A stretch of 64,000 nt of DNA from Gonapodya sp. JEL0774 (Eukaryota > Monoblepharomycota > Monoblepharidomycetes > Monoblepharidales > Gonapodyaceae), in assembly GCA_027604505.1 (NCBI GenBank), contig JADIIX010000047.1, positions 62,001-126,000 on the forward strand, given 5' to 3'. This document shows, piece after piece, positions 12,901-35,317 of this stretch (the first letter of the stretch is position 1; each line of letters starts with the position of its first letter). The notes beneath the pieces were generated by a model. That model was not told where the DNA came from and made no database searches. It saw nothing but the letters and a program-made list of their open reading frames with translations. A program made the translations under genes and the position numbers.

Positions 12901-14439
12901 TAACAGCTTCCTCTCACCACGACTTGTATTCATCTAGTCGTTGCTGCTATTATGCTAACCACACACCTCCTCCCCGACTCCCCCGATTCGTTTTCTTTTG
13001 CATCGTCTGCACGTGCGCAAGCTGCAACAGAGACATTTCTCCCCTCGGACTCGCACCACCCCGAAATTTCCAACTCCACAGCATCCGAACCTTCCCCGCT
13101 TCCATCACAACTCCAATTACCCGTATTCTACGTAAATGTGAATGATATTCCTCACTTGCAACACCTAAGTAGGTCTCGACGAGGGTTCGTTGCATGCACA
13201 ACTGAGAGTATCTTCAGGCAGAAAACGGACTTATGGGACTTGTGGGTGGAATATGGCATCGTGGTGCCTAATGAATTGGGAGCAGTGAGGGCGTCGAGGG
13301 GAAGGGCACCTGGTAGACAACGGTCAAGGAAGCAGTCCCCGGGGGTTGGAGCGCAGGGTACTGAACAAAGGGCGGCGTCAGTAGATCGGGGGCCCACAGC
13401 AGTTGGACCGGAGAAGCTCTCGGTGATGTTCCCCCTCACACCTGCTGACCGCACACGATACACAGCCTTGCGACGATCCATTCAGGAATTGGAGAGGGAG
13501 GAAAACGGATTTCGAAGACGGACATCACGCACGCCAGACGGACGGAGCTCTTCATCGTCGGCGAGGATCCAAGGTGCGGATGTGGCGGCGGTCGAGAGGT
13601 TGCATAAAGCCGCCGATGATTATGGGGAGGAGGACGATGTCGGTTGGCCTGTGCCATCTGAGGAGAAAGCGTTTTTGTTCAGGAGAAGCTTAAGCGCTAG
13701 CGATTTAGATAGTAAGGTACGAATATCCGGTGTGTCGTCGGCCGGACGGAACAGTTTTGGCGGTCAGAGTGTGAGCGGGAGATCCAGCATCGGCGGGAGG
13801 TCAAGCATGGAACCCAGGAGCTCCGGGCAACATGATTGGGAGAGGGAGATGACACCATGGGAAGAGGACGCAGACGAGTACGCGGGTTTGCTGGGTGGCG
13901 ACGATGAGAGGAGCGAAAGGTGGGAATCTGGTGGGAGGAGGAAAGCAGGGGGTGGAAGACAGTCGCCAGATTTTGGCATTGTTTCTAACTTCTCCGAGGT
14001 GAACACAGAGCGCCGGGCGGATCGGCTGGTGGCGCGATACTTTTGCGCCCTTAACACGCAGATTTTGCAGACTCTTCTGTTATCATCCTCTGCGGGTACC
14101 CCTGTCACCCCACACACTCTCAGGGAACTAGGACTGGACTCCTCTCACGACTTTGACTTCCTGGACGAGGTTGCCAAAACCAACGCCGACTTGTATGAAG
14201 TGGAGTTTTCTCGGAAGAAAGGCGGATTGTGGGGTGCCATTACAGGGCTGATCGATTCCAGACACCAAGCTTCGATACGTGATGGAGTGACTCGAGCTGC
14301 AGACACAGCGGTAGAAGTTGGGGAGGCAATCGGCGGGGGCATGACACGGGGTTGGGGTGCATGCTCGAACGTACTCGGGTCCTGTTTGACCTGCATAGAA
14401 CGGTTTGGTAGAAGAGAAGATGGTGGAATTCGCCTTTGA
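9975..14439 (+). CDS. DENND11: DENND11/LCHN-like DENN-domain protein (DUF4484 family)
   Basis: DENN proteins are usually Rab GEFs; LCHN/DENND11 itself is poorly characterised. Exons join at 9975-10249, 10548-12528, 12643-12705, 12789-12864 and 12938-14439, all GT-AG. Blocks matching LCHN in order: GVFIARFDARLGNIIEYSYP; VIYFKHNNLYGLAVFAS across the first intron; GYLSHFVDYFGPQVFL; IWKYALTRKRIIFYADPPV; FYVNVNDIPHLQ; RGFVACTTESIFRQKTDLWD; TPADRTRYTAL; and a C-terminal RYFCALNTQILQTLLL...LGLDSSHDF block. Between the second and third blocks exon 2 adds about 600 residues of Ser/Pro/Ala/Gly-rich, probably disordered sequence that human LCHN lacks, though it keeps the short blocks GARLRAVGILARGW and TLLRNFYEAHKD. 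The start is either Met at 9975 (MAPALSVNW) or the in-frame Met at 9942. Confidence 0.85.
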
Positions 14440-14530: not shown

Positions 14531-17500
14531 TCAACCGACAACTTGCTCGCTCAATCCTGCTTCTTGCCCGAATGCCCAAAAGTTGTTGTAGTTCAAGCGC
14601 AAAAGAAACTGGTCAAGATGAACAATGTGCTGATACATAGTGTTCGACCTCAAAGACCCCACAGTCTGGGGCGATGAGACGGCGGGCGTCGTTCCGGGGG
14701 GCGCAGAAGATGCATTTAAGACACCAGAAAATGTACGAAATAGGAACTTGGTATCCGTCCAGAAATACTGGGAAAACAAGGTAGGTGGGCGAGTCTGAAG
14801 AGAGTTAACGTGCGGTCCTTAACCCACCTCTTCGAATTCGTGAAGCTCCTTTTCCATCCTGCTGAGAGCTTCTGTGTCCCGATTTTTCCTTCTTCCTGCA
14901 GCTACAGCCGATTCGATGGAATCGGGTACCGTCGGTAGGATGTTATCCCAACCTTTCTCCACAGATGACGCGAATCGGCCGCATGTCTCCAACACTGCTT
15001 TGATGGTCGTTCCAACCATTGCATACACATTCTGCTCGAGAAAGCATCCTTTCATAATCCCTTTCAAAAATCGACTGTGAACTTCTGAGAGATGCGTAAT
15101 TGTCGGTGATTGACCTGTCTGAGAAGACAATGTGCGGCGGGACTTGAGAGATCGAAGGAGATTTTGGAAATTAGGCTCCAAAATATCTGACTGTAGGGGG
15201 AAAAGAACGTAAATAATGAAATCGAAGACAAATGGAGGCGCGAGTTTACCTGTAGATATGCCCAAAGCGCCCCAACAAAGAAGCTCATCGCTGCTCTCAG
15301 GCTCCACACTCGTCTCCCCAGATCAAGTTTTAGTCGCTCGATCAGATCTTCCACTTCCGGTGCAGCAGCGACCGCAGGAACCCCATTAACACTGTGTCTC
15401 AGATTCCGAGCTTTAACTACCAGAACCCACACATCACGGTCCAGCCGCAACTGAATACGCTTGATGGTGAGAAGAAATGAATAAAGGGCGGAATACCTAA
15501 TGGATGTAATGAGGTTGCGATGCATACAGGAGATGTTCCTAAGTTCGGATGTCTCACCCCTCCCAGCTTTCGCCTCCGACAACAGCATCCAGGGGCCATT
15601 CTGCATCGCACTCCAGTGTCACTGGTAGTCCAACGAGCTCGCTTGCATAAGGATCTCCTGGTTTACCAGATTTTCTCACTGGCGGCCGCTTGGGCTTTGA
15701 TGGCAGCTTTGGAATCTCCATTTCTGGCACAGAGGATCTATCTGGATTCGTGCTACTATCACGTTGTTCGTCTTTGCGGCCAGGATCTTTAACTTTAGCG
15801 GCTGTTTCTTTCTCTTTACCCTTGCCGAGATCTATCCTCGCCTTCACCCCAGCGTATTGCTTTGGCACCGAGTACTTCTTCACCGGTCTTTTGCCTTTGT
15901 CTCTGATTGGGGATTGAGCGGAGGACTTGCCCTTAACTCCAGATTTTTCTCCGTCTGGCATCGCCAACGGTTCGGGACTGGTCGCAGGAGATGGATCACT
16001 CTGGACAGTCTTTGGACCCTCAGACTCGGCCACCACCGTCCCGGGAGCAGATGGGTCTTCTAACGTGAGATACTCGTCCTCATCGATTACACGTTCTCGA
16101 ACCCGGAATCTGAACGCTGATATCGGGTACGGGGGAGCCGTTCGCGGTGTTCGTACACGATGTCGGGGTGCAGGCGGTTGAGGAGGTATAGCGGTGCGAT
16201 TGGGTGCTTGAGGAGTCACCACATCATTTGGCTTGTGAAGTTCATCCTCGTCCGAGACCCATTCCACTCCATCATCGGCTTCATTTCCCGTGTCAAGACC
16301 TAGACCATGTGGGCCGGCATCATCATCCTCGGGTGTTAGGGACCGATAGGTAGAATGTAGAAGCATGGTGAGGTCTTACGTTGAAACCCAGAGTGCAATC
16401 AATAAAATTTGTCGTTAACACCACTTGTGGGTGGACCAATTCACCAACCCACCATGTTCCAAAACTCTGTTGTTCACCGCCACTCCCGACCAGCTACCCC
16501 CCATCGCTAGTCCGGCGATTCCACCGGCTCCGATTGCGGATCGCCGCCCTGCTACCTTCCATCCTTCACTCCACGCCTCCCAAACGTCTCCTCGTCCGAT
16601 GAGTGCAATCTCCCGCACAGAGCGAAGGAGTCGTGCGAGACTACGTGAGAGAAGGAAGTGGTGCAGAGCGGAAGACAGGCGGTTGGCAATAGGGTGAAGG
16701 TGCGTGAGGAGGCTGGTGGTTGGAAATCTTGGAAGTGACGAAGAAGGGGAAGATGGAAGGAAGTCCAGTTTCGCAGTACCACTGGCATCACTCGCCGAAT
16801 ACAGCGGCGACACGGTGGCGAAAGCTGTCTTCACATTGGCTTCGTGTTCACTTAAAAGCACACGAGCCTCGATCGCCGCTCTTCGCTCCGTTCCAGCCAC
16901 ACGACGGATCATGGAAGTGGCCTGACCGATGAAAAGAACTTCCTCGGAGAGCTTGCGAGGAACGTAGCTCGGTATAAATTGTGAGGAAACTACAAATTCT
17001 GAAGGGTCAACCGGGGTTTCGGATTGAGGTGGGAAGTAGTCCGCAAAAGTGGTACGAGTGCGGTCCGTGACTCGAGAAGCGCCTACTTGTGCGAGAGCAC
17101 TCTCAGTCACTCGGTCCTCTCCTTTCCTCCTGATCCACCATTCCTTTGATGGATCCCATACCCTGCCATATGAGCACCACACAAAGCACTGTGCCAGAAG
17201 CACACCGTGCTCGACCAAAGCTGTTATCTGCTCAAAGCAATCGCGGATATCGGGATCTCCGGAGAGGGAGCGTTCGTAAAGGAGGGTGAGGAGTGGGGGC
17301 GCGGGGTAAGGGGAGTCCGGAGGTGGGTAAAGGAGGTAAAGGAGGAACGAGTGTAAACTAGGGAGAACGATGAGATACTTCATACACGAGGAGAAAACCG
17401 GAAAACGTGGGAGGAACCGCCGTTGTCGCAGAAGAATTCTTAGTATTGATCAAAATGAGAATTCACCGTCCCGCGACTTACGCACTTTCGCGAACGCACT

Positions 17501-29698: not shown

Positions 29699-31022
29699 TC
29701 AAACATCCACCGCCTTTGCCCTTACAATGATTACATCGGTCTTTGGTCGGTCAGTAGAGTCGACGGGGACAAGGCTAATGATGGGGACGACCAGTAGAAC
29801 GGCGGAAGGAGGATCCACAGAGGGCTCGATCAGCACCACCGAAAGTTGGAGTTTAGAGGGAATATGACGTACCCGATTTTGTTGAGGGTTTTAATTCCCG
29901 AGAAGAGACGACCAAAGATGGTATGTTTGCCTGTGCAATGTTAGAGATGTGCGAAGGCGATCAAGAAAGTTATTACATCAGCCGAGACCATTTGAATGAG
30001 TTCGCAGAACCGTGAGATTCCACACCGTCAAGCCAAGGAGTAGGAGCGAGCGTCATGAAAAACTGAGATCCGTTTGTGTTGGGGCCGCTGTTGGCCATTG
30101 AAAGGATACCGGCACCCGTCTGGGGTCAATGGGATTTATTCGAGATGGTGACATGGCCAAGTGAGCAGGAAACAGCGATGCGAATGGACTGGAAATGGAA
30201 ATTTACATACATGCTTGAGTTCCTTCGTCAGTTCATCCGCGAATGCCTCGCTAGATTCCAGTAGGGGTGGGTGTGTCATGTTTTTTGGACAAGAGGGAGG
30301 GCAAATTGAGACAAGACGCGTGGAGTAAGAAAAGAATGGAGGAACTACTGCAAGGACACTAACCCGTAGATAGATGTTCCACCCTTTCCGGTGCCGGAAG
30401 GGTCACCCCCTGACAGAAGCAAGATGGGATTAGGACGTGGAAACGAGCGGAGAGACCAAATGCCCTAGAATGAGCCAGGGTCACTGAAGTAGGGCACCGC
30501 TGCGTACCTGCTTACCTTGCACCATGAAGTTCGTGATAACTCGGTGAAACTTTGTACCATCGTAGTAGCCCCGTTTCGCCTGAGGAGTGAGACGCACGGA
30601 AGTCCAGGTGTCATAGTCAGGGTGACGTGTTGTGCAAGAGAGGAAACGAGGACTGCAGGGATAAACGCACGAGCTCAAAGAAGTTTTTGCAGGTTTTTGG
30701 AGCATGTTGCCAGTACTTTGCGATGAGAATGGATGGAACAAGACGATGTGATTGAAACGCGCAGGAGACACCGGAGATGGAGAGGTGAATAAGAAGCGAA
30801 CGAGATCGCATTCTCCAAATACAGCACCCACTAGTTCACATCCTATACTTCCCTATGTCCATGAGAGTCGGTTGGGGTGGGAAAGGGAGTAACGGCATTG
30901 GATGAATGTGATATTCGGAAAATAGGGGGCGATTGGAGCCCTGAAAGCCGTGATTGCAAAGAAACTGAGCGTACCGCCGATGTCTCGAGAATGACGTAGG
31001 GTTGGGAGGGTAAGTTTGCCAT
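29699..31022 (-). CDS. PPIL1: Cyclophilin-type peptidyl-prolyl isomerase, PPIL1 type
   Basis: PPIL1 is a spliceosome-associated cyclophilin catalysing cis-trans proline isomerisation. The start at 31022 reads [16 protein letters not shown], then by splicing to [17 protein letters not shown]. Next comes [20 protein letters not shown], with the catalytic Arg and the substrate-pocket Phe and Met in FHR and [15 protein letters not shown]-like sequence follows in the exon near 30.4 kb, then [20 protein letters not shown] and [11 protein letters not shown]. Across an intron comes [20 protein letters not shown], with the usual Trp that binds cyclosporin. The C-terminus is [21 protein letters not shown]. 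The size is close to the 160-166 residues usual for PPIL1, with no extra domain. At least five introns interrupt this short gene. Not every exon end was fixed. Confidence 0.88.
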
Positions 31023-31316
31023 GAGAGAGTTTGAGTTTGATTGTGGTTTGTCCAGCATACACAGGTCACTACTATACAACAAGCGTGACACCACTGGCTA
31101 CAACCACAAGTGAACAACCTTGATCAATCGCAGATATACACCTTTCTTCCCCAAGCAAAACCGACATTTGAGTGGAAGATCACATTTGAAGACTTCTAGG
31201 GTGACCGAATCGCCACTGGAGCTTCAAATCTTTCCGCAAATCGGGATATTGTTCGGGTCCAGCCGGCGTTCAATTCTCTTACTTGGATACAAGTGCACCG
31301 GACACAGGACAAGACG
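31023..31316. promoter_or_regulatory. Shared divergent promoter PPIL1 / CEP70
   Basis: These 294 bases separate the start codons of two divergent genes. The CEP70 frame is open upstream to an in-frame Met at 31293. No specific motif was recognised. Confidence 0.4.
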
Positions 31317-32410
31317 ATGGACGCCGCTGAGCGAGAGACTGTTTTCAGGAGCTATCTGGCTCAGGGCAAGGGGGGTGGAACTACAGACGGCAAGGAGGGA
31401 TCGGGATCCGCAACCGGATCTGCGGCGTCACTACAGCGGGATTCACCGTCGCCGTCTGTTCTGCCCGCACTGCCATCGCTGCAGCCTCTCCAATCGCAAC
31501 GCGGGTCTTCATCCGCAGTCTCCGCGCCGCCCCCACCGCTCCCTCCACAACCACCTCCTCCCACCATCGCTGTGCAGGCACCAACTCCTTCCTCTGCGGC
31601 AGCACCTTCTCCGCCTTCTCTTGCCCCTTCTCTCTCCTCCTTGTCTGCTAACTCTCCCTCTCCTGCTCACAATGATTCTTTCGCTCCGACCGCAAGCCGA
31701 ACGAAACTCTATCGCTCTTACCTGGACACTCCGACCGGCCCTCTGTCCGCTATGAGCAACTCCGCTTCATCAAAATCTGCTTCGCGCACGCACTCAGCCT
31801 CTGCATCAGCTGCGAATCTACCCCCCGCTATAACCCCAGCAAGGGCACCTGCGTCCAACTCTGTGCGTTCCTCCAATCCCTCGTTACCACCTAATTCCTT
31901 CACACAAGCTGCGGGCACTGTATCTACAGGAACTCTATCCTCTTCCAATGTCGCTATTGCCCAACCTTCCTCCTCTTCCTCTGGACTCTCAGGCCTTTCG
32001 TCCTCTACATCACCAGCGTGGAACACAGTTTCCCGCGAACGCCTCTACAAGGGCTACGCAGAAAGTTCTGCCCAATCCGGGGAAAGCGGTGGTCGCAGTG
32101 GAAGTATATATGCTCTCGCACCGAGTGAAGATCGAGCGAGAAAAGCGAACGGGGAGGACAATCCAGATCCTTCAACGGCTTCCAAACCCGCTCCCACCTC
32201 AACCCGCCCCTCCAACTCTGCTCCCCCTGCTCCCCCTTCTTTACCTTCTTCCTCGACATCTGCTCCACCTGCACGTTCTTCCTCTTCCTCCGTCCCCAAT
32301 CTTGCATCATCGTCCTCCTCGAAGGCACCAATTTCTTCTTCCACCACCCCAGCTTCTTGGAATGCCTCATCGCGTGTTCGTCTCTACAAAGACTACGCTG
32401 ATGGGTCCGG
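31317..32410 (+). repeat. Four-copy protein motif R-x-x-(L/V)-(Y/F)-(R/K)-x-Y-(L/A)-(D/E/A) in CEP70
   Basis: With Met at 31317 as residue 1, copies begin at R6 (RETVFRSYLA), R128 (RTKLYRSYLD), R240 (RERLYKGYAE) and R353 (RVRLYKDYAD). Spacings are 122, 112 and 113 residues. Copies 2-4 are preceded by Ser, and copies 3 and 4 also by an A-W-N or A-S-W-N segment. Linkers are low-complexity Ser/Pro/Ala. The motif is far more conserved than its linkers, which suggests a bound partner. Confidence 0.8.
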
Positions 32411-35317
32411 GACTGCTGTTGGCAACTCCGGTTCTCAGTCCCACCGGTCCGCCGATCGGCCACCTCCTCCCGCCACACCGACACCCTCTATCCCGCCTCC
32501 GCATCCTACCTCTATCCCATCTACACCTGCGAATGCCAGTGGAAACTTCAATGATACCATGCTCACGCCGGACATGTCTCCACCAGCCGGATACTCACCA
32601 CCGGTCACAGCAAGTGCAAGGTCGGAGGGCACATCGACAACAGCGACAGGAGTTGGGGGACAGAGTACGTGATAAATCCTCTACCACGTCTTGAATTCGT
32701 TTTCTCATACCGTGCTCGAAACACTCCACCTCTGTCGCAGCACCTACCGACCTTTCTCTGTATGTCCGATTTCTCCTCTCCGGCACGGGGGCAGAACATC
32801 AAGTCGATTACGCCGCTCTCCGCAGGGAGCTGGACAATGACGCGAGTTCTCGAGGCGGGGGGAGTGTGGCAGGTAGTATCATAGGGGAGGACACACCCAC
32901 ACCAACACCGTCGCAGACCTTTACACCAAAGTTTGAAGGAGGAGAGAGGTGGGGTGTTGACGCCTCGCCAACACCTGCACCTGTTCCCAATCGTACTCGC
33001 ACTACAACCACCACAACCGTGACAGCAGGGACAACTGGAACCACGATAACTCCCCAAGTCACTTCGATGGCCGCCACTACCACCCCGGGGTCGGCCCGGT
33101 CCGAAAAGTCCGATAGACTTGGTGGACCGATGACGGAAGAAGAGGTAGAAAGGGCTCTGGACAGCTGGAGGGAGAGGGAGAGAAGAAGGAGGCAGGAGGC
33201 TGAACAGTGGGAGATTGATGCTTCAGAAGGTGGGAGAAACACGGAGAGGGGGAGGGAGAGAGGGAGGGAGAGAAGGAGGGAGAAGGAGACCGTGACACGC
33301 CATTCACGGGTTTCCACTGCTAGTGTGCATGCGGCAGCCTCTCTCGTGCCCGGCACGGGACCTAGTACGCGCTTGTCACTTTCCCGATCACGGTCCCGAT
33401 CACGAACCTTGTCTAGATCTCGATCGCGTTCGCGCTACTCGGATGGGGAGAGAGAGGAGACAGTGACGGGGAAACCACGCTCCACGTCAGCGCACATGTC
33501 GGTGTCAACGCCTCACACAAAGGCAGTTGACTTTCCGAATTCAACGTCTCGTTCTCGGTCCAGACATTCGGAAGCACTTTCAGATGACCGGACGCCCCGA
33601 GCGATGTCAAAGACTCCCCCACCTCTGCCTTCAGCCACTGCAGCTGTGCACGTACCCTTGCCGGCAACTTTGGACACATCGACCGCTTCTTCCACCCTTC
33701 TCGCCCGTGTCGCAGCTGCAGACGCCCGAGCCGTCGCAGCAGAGCGTGCTGCAGCTAGCCTCAGGCTAGATCTGGCGGAGGCGCGGGAGCGACTTAGGCG
33801 GCGGGATAGGGACGCCGAGCAGGCGTGGCGGGAGGTTGGGGAACCAGCTGCGAGGAGAGCCAGGGTGCGCGGTGGAGATGGAGACAAAGACAAAGGGGGG
33901 ATGAAAGTTGAGGCCGCCGAAAGGGTTGCAAGGGAGGTGGCCAAGGGATATGAAGGACGGGTTGCGATTTTAGCAGAGCGAGTAAGATTGTTGGAGGAAG
34001 AAGTCGCCGCAGGGAAGAGAAAGCTTGCGGAGGCAGAGCGAAGGGCATACATGGGAGCCGCGGAGGCAGCGAGAAGTGAGGTACACGAGCTGAGGCGAAG
34101 GGCGGAAGAGGCCGAAGACAGAGGAAGGAGAGCAGAGGCTAAAGTTGCGAGATTGCAGGGTGAGGTGGAGGCGGAGAGGGAGGAAAAAGAAGTGCTGCAA
34201 CTGAGGATGTTGGAGAAGAAAGTGGGCAAGGTGGAGGAGTCGGGTGAGTTTTGCCAGGGCCCAGGAGACGTCAAATTGGTCACCGGCATTTCAAACTTAA
34301 TCTCATATCCACCGTCTCTCAGTGCCACCCCCTCCCAACTTGACAACCCGCGACCTCATTCGCCGGGATAAGCTGGCCGCACAGGCGAGCAATCTCCCAC
34401 CTTCACTCACGTCGCTCAGTGCTGACGCTGCTCGTGCTCTCCTCGGCCAAGTCACCAACCTTCTCGGCGTCCCCGATGTTGATTCGCTGATACCCGGCGT
34501 CCGTGACGTTGCAAAGGTAATCAAGGCGTTGCCGGATGTGCAGAGGTTTGTTCGTGAGGTGGATGAGGTTGTGTGGGGACAGTTTGAGGACGAGAATGGG
34601 GAGAAAAACGTGCACAAGCTCGTAGAGACGGCGAAAAGGCTTCGTGAGTGGAGAGAGGATGTGAAAAGAGCAAAAAAGCTCGAGGTGAGTTGACCCGATT
34701 GGTGTACTATTCCACCCAGCACTTTCGAGATGTTAATTATGGAACGCTTCCCACCGTCCACCTTCACGCCTCAGACATTCCGTCGACGTGTGTATCGTCA
34801 TCTGGGGATGGAGCCACGGGAAGCTGAATCAGCCGTCCTGGATCAAATCGCTCATTCACTTCATGATGCTCCTAAGCCGGGGGATACTGCCTCAGACCGC
34901 CTCGTCGCCCGCTTTCAATCTCTCTTTGATGTCGCGTCGATCGATGGGGTGCAGTCCGCGATGGATAGACTCTATACCCAAACGTCTGTTGCGGATAATG
35001 CCCTAAGAAGATTGAAGAGAGCAATTGGCAAGGATACAGGAAGCATCACCGCGGTCGTGGATGAAGCTTGCCGCATTGTGGATATGTGGAAGGATATGGA
35101 GGAGGAGCTTGAAAGTGCAGGAAGTGTCGAGGAGCTCCGACATGGGAGGGGCACTGGGTACCAAGCTGAACGACGTGCGCGGAGGGTTGATCGGGGGGAG
35201 GACGAAAATCGCTTCGATGGCAAGCATGCGGAGGAGGATCCTGGCATGAGCGAAAGAGAGGGGGACGAGGCGTTCAGAGAGCTTGGCAAGCTCTTGGGAA
35301 GGGGGAATCGGACATAA
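31317..35317 (+). CDS. CEP70: CEP70-like centrosomal/basal-body protein with an N-terminal four-copy motif
   Basis: CEP70 is a centrosome/basal-body protein that binds gamma-tubulin and is found mainly in organisms with centrioles. Exons are 31317-32664, 32741-34243, 34323-34684 and about 34730-35317. Residues 1-450 are Ser/Pro/Ala-rich and contain four spaced copies of R-x-x-(L/V)-(Y/F)-(R/K)-x-Y. Next come an Arg/Ser region (SRSRSRSR) and a long coiled coil (about 33.70-34.23 kb; AEARERLRRRDRDAEQAWRE, AILAERVRLLEEEVAAGKRK). The C-terminal domain matches human CEP70: DAARALLGQVTNLL...VRDVAKVIKAL, and above all RFQSLFDVASIDGVQSAMDR LYTQ against human [23 protein letters not shown], then NALRRLKRAI. 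The extreme C-terminal human block (EEHEEFFPAFQAF) is not seen. The domain match is good but rests on remembered sequence. The start could be Met 31293. Confidence 0.75.

Follow-up and report, generated by a model that had tools for sequence, protein, structure and literature searches.

The window analyzed here, a stretch of 64,000 nucleotides from Gonapodya sp. JEL0774 (a zoosporic fungus of the Monoblepharidomycetes, with a genome of 25.0 Mb) located on contig C47, carries a spliced gene of 4 exons and 1251 residues that likely codes for a homologue of the centrosomal and basal-body protein CEP70, with a repeated short peptide in the product of its first exon (Table 1). Its introns have 76, 79 and 90 bases. 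The downstream part of the spliced gene is already deposited as the hypothetical protein HDU93_007292 of the same organism (NCBI model, 803 residues), of which residues 2–803 map onto positions 32741–35317 at 99–100%. The deposited protein begins MAPTDLSLYV, i.e., at the start of exon 2, and all four copies of the peptide hence fall outside it. The first methionine past residue 450 of the spliced protein is residue 559, so that translation has to begin upstream of exon 2. If the acceptor is kept and the donor is GT, a start at MAPT requires the sequence ATGG/GT, the sole instance of which in positions 30801–32740 lies at 32401 and would give a 4-base coding exon inside the frame of exon 1. We judge the long open frame to be the better first exon of the two, and the omission of this 1.35 kb motif-bearing exon from the deposited model is probably a mis-annotation.

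Table 1. Features of the CEP70-homologue gene and its repeated peptide (positions in the window).
Feature	Positions	Strand	Remarks
Exon 1	31317..32664	+	449 codons including the start codon, and one further base; tail rich in Ser, Pro and Ala
Motif copy 1, RETVFRSYLA, residues 6-15	31332..31361	+	Weakest copy
Motif copy 2, RTKLYRSYLD, residues 128-137	31698..31727	+	
Trp-Asn before copy 3	32019..32024	+	Trp five residues upstream of the copy 3 Arg
Motif copy 3, RERLYKGYAE, residues 240-249	32034..32063	+	
Trp-Asn before copy 4	32358..32363	+	Trp five residues upstream of the copy 4 Arg
Motif copy 4, RVRLYKDYAD, residues 353-362	32373..32402	+	
Inferred intron 1	32665..32740	+	76 bases, GTACGT...CAG; reading frame continues from exon 1 into exon 2
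Exon 2	32741..34243	+	Predicted coiled coil and low complexity; the HDU93_007292 model starts at the first codons
Exon 3	34323..34684	+	C-terminal part begins here
Exon 4	34775..35317	+	Segment resembling the human CEP70 C terminus (provisional sequence), then stop codon

The assignment to CEP70, made in an earlier note on this DNA, is upheld by the C-terminal region: residues 941–1251 align with the C-terminal 257 residues of a provisional human CEP70 sequence at 36.1 bits, as against 5.5 bits for the best of 2000 shuffles and -1.8 for the reversed sequence. BLASTP against the same provisional sequence, as a two-sequence comparison, gives 27/107 identical positions with an E of 1e-9. This sequence has 597 residues, the length also given in PMC10820798, and the name CEP70, which rests on it, is likely right. 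A Pfam search of the protein at E up to 1 returned no family, and comparison with solved structures stayed at chance level (best E 0.74 for the motif profile and 0.15 for the NCBI model). A structure model of HDU93_007292 built without an alignment places long helices at residues 134–191, 314–378 and 387–496 (block pLDDT 48–86), from which the central coiled coil expected of a CEP70 is predicted, and, in the C-terminal part, for which CEP70 has a TPR annotation, predicts helices at low confidence. What the Gonapodya protein appears to share with CEP70 of human, zebrafish and Chlamydomonas is the C-terminal segment and the long predicted helices of the middle part, whereas it is about twice as long as the human protein (1251 vs 597 residues) and adds a Ser/Pro/Ala-rich N-terminal tail of ~450 residues that bears the motif. 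No convincing second CEP70 copy was found in the genome, the other matches being at E 0.3 or worse. A partial match to SAS-6_N above the curated cut-off (E 3.1e-8) suggests that this genome keeps a centriole gene. By eye, the start of exon 2 (32741–32860, forward strand), TDLSLYVRFLLSGTGAEHQVDYAALRREL, stands out as an ordered island amid low-complexity stretches, and, likewise by eye, it may be the counterpart of the N-terminal part of animal CEP70.

The motif resides in a region in which Ser, Pro or Ala account for 234 of the first 450 residues of the spliced protein. It had earlier been described as R-x-x-(L/V)-(Y/F)-(R/K)-x-Y-(L/A)-(D/E/A) at residues 6, 128, 240 and 353, with spacings of 122, 112 and 113 residues, and recomputation returned the same pattern, positions and spacings; alignment of the copies also bears out the upstream Trp-Asn common to copies 3 and 4. 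Shuffled sequence rarely matches the pattern: when the first 450 residues were shuffled 200,000 times, the strict form never occurred, and a looser form occurred once in 170 of the 200,000 and more than once in none. Since the two patterns derive from the copies themselves, more weight falls on tests with less circularity. When each copy was scored with a profile built from the others, copies 2, 3 and 4 reached 30.0, 30.7 and 28.0, with the best non-copy 12-mers of the whole protein at 14.0, 13.0 and 12.3, whereas copy 1 (18.0) fell under the best non-copy 12-mer (19.7). There are thus three secure copies, with the consensus S-R-x-(R/K)-L-Y-(R/K)-x-Y-(A/L)-(D/E), and one weaker N-terminal copy. 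With a profile from all four, the copies score 28.25–38.25, and nothing above 23.5 was reached when the first 450 residues were shuffled 2000 times. Of the 9 tyrosines in the first 450 residues, 7 fall within the copies, and both tryptophans sit shortly before copies 3 and 4. The four-copy motif in exon 1 is, in sum, confirmed as real and non-chance, with copy 1 the weaker member. A further candidate copy, degenerate and located where exon 2 begins (LSLYVRFLL), was rejected at a profile score of 4.75, as against 28–38 for the copies, and a possible EF-hand at copy 4 (ADGSGT, by eye) was set aside since it is not common to copies 1–3.

The motif itself is also the strongest sign that exon 1 is coding. 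Its core residues are kept across synonymous codon differences: over the ten core positions, copies 3 and 4 agree in 7 residues and only 3 codons, copies 2 and 4 in 5 residues and 2 codons, and copies 1 and 2 likewise in 5 residues and 2 codons. Codon usage is of no help on this question, as the mean synonymous score of the exon 1 frame (-0.021) lies below that of three of the five other frames (+0.025, +0.059 and +0.020). This indifference of codon usage, together with the start of the deposited model at exon 2, lends something to the view that exon 1 is a short gene of its own, or an untranslated or spurious open frame, that does not belong to the CEP70 protein. The exon 1 frame, moreover, meets a stop at 32670–32672, i.e., in bases 6–8 of the proposed intron 1, and the first donor (A/GTACGT) departs further from the standard form than do the donors of introns 2 and 3 (G/GTGAGT). 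Against this view, the junction of exons 1 and 2 is in frame across a GT-AG intron of a size with its neighbors, the alternative start at MAPT implies the 4-base exon mentioned above, an open run of at least 449 codons in any of three frames was reached in only 1 of 2000 first-order Markov sequences, and no stand-alone exon 1 protein was found among 468 candidates scored. A separate exon 1 hence appears rather unlikely, and we infer that exon 1 is part of the CEP70 transcript.

The copies could have arisen by duplication. In its strongest form, such an account would take them as relics of an internally duplicated unit of ~113 residues, kept by recency rather than by selection for binding. The nearly equal spacings (122, 112, 113) have a chance of 0.0017 for four random places, though this was judged post hoc, and the Trp-Asn of copies 3 and 4 comes with a similar flank; furthermore, 5 of the 6 pairs of linkers, compared with the motifs masked, score above the shuffle mean by about 9 or more. 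No linker pair, however, is clearly homologous, with the observed score being reached in 52 to 480 of 1000 shuffles across the six pairs (52/1000 for the closest); at the DNA level, no tandem repeat of ~113-residue period was found and none of the direct repeats of at least 18 bases pairs the motif copies; and the synonymous changes in a core whose residues are kept speak against mere recency. The earlier picture of a conserved core amid diverged linkers therefore holds on the leave-one-out scores and the codon differences, with the qualification that the linkers, without clear homology, might retain a faint similarity, and copies preserved as relics alone are unlikely.

The exon 1 protein folded alone by AlphaFold2 without an alignment has a mean pLDDT of 42.5, with a helix only at residues 3–16, over copy 1, and with copies 2–4 devoid of structure (block pLDDT 36–42); the N-terminal tail is probably disordered. 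The idea that the copies are short helices gains no support from this prediction, in which copy 1 alone is helical. By inspection, the conserved positions 0, 3, 4, 7 and 8 would line up on a single side of a helix, yet the copies do not stand out by their hydrophobic moments at the helical angle of 100 degrees (ranks of 383, 110, 123 and 73 among 439 windows for copies 1 to 4). At 170 degrees, corresponding to an extended chain, the ranks are 324, 39, 41 and 7 of 439.

Disordered tails of scaffold proteins can carry multivalent short linear motifs, such as the arrays bound by dimeric hubs like LC8, and a parallel might be struck with the Gonapodya tail, in which several copies of a short core are likewise set in low-complexity linkers. 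In contrast to such arrays, the Gonapodya copies are spaced by ~113 residues and their core fits none of 12 working patterns. These come from a set of 14 working patterns of known motifs tried against the four copies, of which 12 fit no copy: the D-box, KEN, RVxF, LxxIxE, SxIP, LC8, cyclin RxL, YxxPhi, CM1, 14-3-3 and two centrin-binding forms. The gamma-tubulin-complex-binding CM1 motif is also a short basic and aromatic peptide in centrosomal proteins, but its core in simplified form, [KR][LI][RK][IVL]Y, occurs in 0 of the 4 copies. Similarly, the centrin-binding repeats of Sfi1 and POC5 are a short hydrophobic and aromatic element repeated in a centriole protein; they stand in short tandem, unlike the widely spaced Gonapodya copies, and their working patterns (a hydrophobic 1-4-8 with Trp, or the Sfi1 form LL...[FL]..W) are absent from all four.

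The two patterns that do fit are the ABBA pattern, in copy 4 only, and bare RxxL, which is found in all four copies but is nearly built into the motif. The latter would allow the copies to be read as APC/C destruction boxes that time the turnover of CEP70. All 5 RxxL of the first 450 residues do lie inside copies, although the motif alone accounts for three of them; on the other hand, the fuller D-box pattern R..L..[LIVM] fits 0 of the 4 copies, a KEN box is present in none, and the conserved Tyr-x-x-Tyr is not known to be part of a D-box. Destruction boxes are accordingly a very improbable reading. We found no literature that pairs Cep70 with a chytrid or with a short linear motif, and the main text of PMC13358043 mentions neither CEP70 nor Gonapodya.

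Taken together, these features point to a tail of repeated peptides that may act as a multivalent docking tail on a basal-body CEP70 scaffold, a reading to which we give a probability of about 0.5. Under this proposal, exon 1 would encode the long, probably disordered N-terminal tail of the CEP70 homologue, each motif copy would dock on the same surface of one putative partner, and the CEP70 chain, doubled by its predicted coiled coil, would link several molecules of this partner to one another at the centrosome or basal body. What is known of CEP70 in animals gives this a plausible setting. In the human protein, the N-terminal half with its coiled coil directs centrosomal localization, the coiled coils bind gamma-tubulin, and ALMS1 and CEP135 are among the other proteins bound by a C-terminal fragment (PMC10820798). 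Zebrafish Cep70 is stated to bind itself, as data not shown, in PMC2662791. By analogy, a long tail of repeated short peptides on a self-binding protein would suit a multivalent scaffold, in which the copies would presumably bind a partner and act together.

The same observations might also be turned to an intramolecular account, in which the copies bind the C-terminal helical module of CEP70 itself and so keep the protein closed or self-assembled. The self-binding reported for zebrafish (PMC2662791) and the role of the human C-terminal fragment as the protein-binding part (PMC10820798) fit with this, whereas in the provisional human sequence the C-terminal module is present and the motif is not. 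That human CEP70 has nothing like the motif had been stated in the earlier note, and for the provisional sequence it agrees with the score of the best 12-mer, 11.25, being reached or passed in 459 of 1000 shuffles. An internal target for the copies is improbable.

In chytrids (Chytridiomycota, to which Gonapodya does not belong), most animal pericentriolar components, e.g., pericentrin and CDK5RAP2, are without clear orthologues (PMC12659703), and the Monoblepharidomycetes may similarly lack the animal pericentriolar scaffolds. One might then conceive, quite speculatively and with the odds well against it, that CEP70 of the Monoblepharidomycetes gained a multivalent disordered tail whose new motif brings in a microtubule-nucleating or centriolar partner in several copies, giving rise to a lineage-specific centrosome scaffold. 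If the motif does bind such a centriolar or microtubule partner, it would both name a new docking motif and show how a fungus without most of the animal pericentriolar scaffolds builds a centrosome. At a minimum, a coding exon is probably absent from the deposited protein, and with it a motif invisible to scans of that protein.

The distribution of the motif was followed in the genome and among relatives. A nine-codon degenerate DNA pattern derived from copies 2–4 has 4 matches in the 25 Mb, 3 of which are these copies; the remaining one lies on contig C235 and, translated by eye as TRRRFYHQY, departs from the amino-acid motif. As the reversed control of this pattern gives 12 matches in the 25 Mb, the single outside match is background. 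A narrower pattern found copy 4 only across the genome, and the exon 1 protein, searched against the genome at E up to 1, found only itself, as did copy 3 used as a query of 22 residues; the latter search missed even copy 4 and is therefore insensitive. We conclude that the motif is no common peptide of this genome at the stringency of the scan, looser forms in partner proteins lying outside its reach. Among relatives, HDU93_007292 was the only protein recovered with the C-terminal part of the full protein among a capped set of 7996 candidates scored, with that of the NCBI model among 2860, and with a query assembled from the four copies plus the beginning of exon 2 among 468. Since the deposited model of the species itself is without exon 1, models from other species may lack it too, and the blank in protein searches, for which the length and shared-word limits of the search or absent or broken models may account, does not show that relatives lack the motif.

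The window holds further open frames around the CEP70 gene. One on the reverse strand at 16418–17383, ~14 kb from the gene, has a match to Pfam GCP_N_terminal (gamma-tubulin complex component; E 1.1e-9), and another on the forward strand at 12952–14439 matches Pfam DENND11 (E 3.9e-11). The frame on the reverse strand at 30481–30852 resembles by eye what we take to be part of a cyclophilin-type prolyl isomerase.
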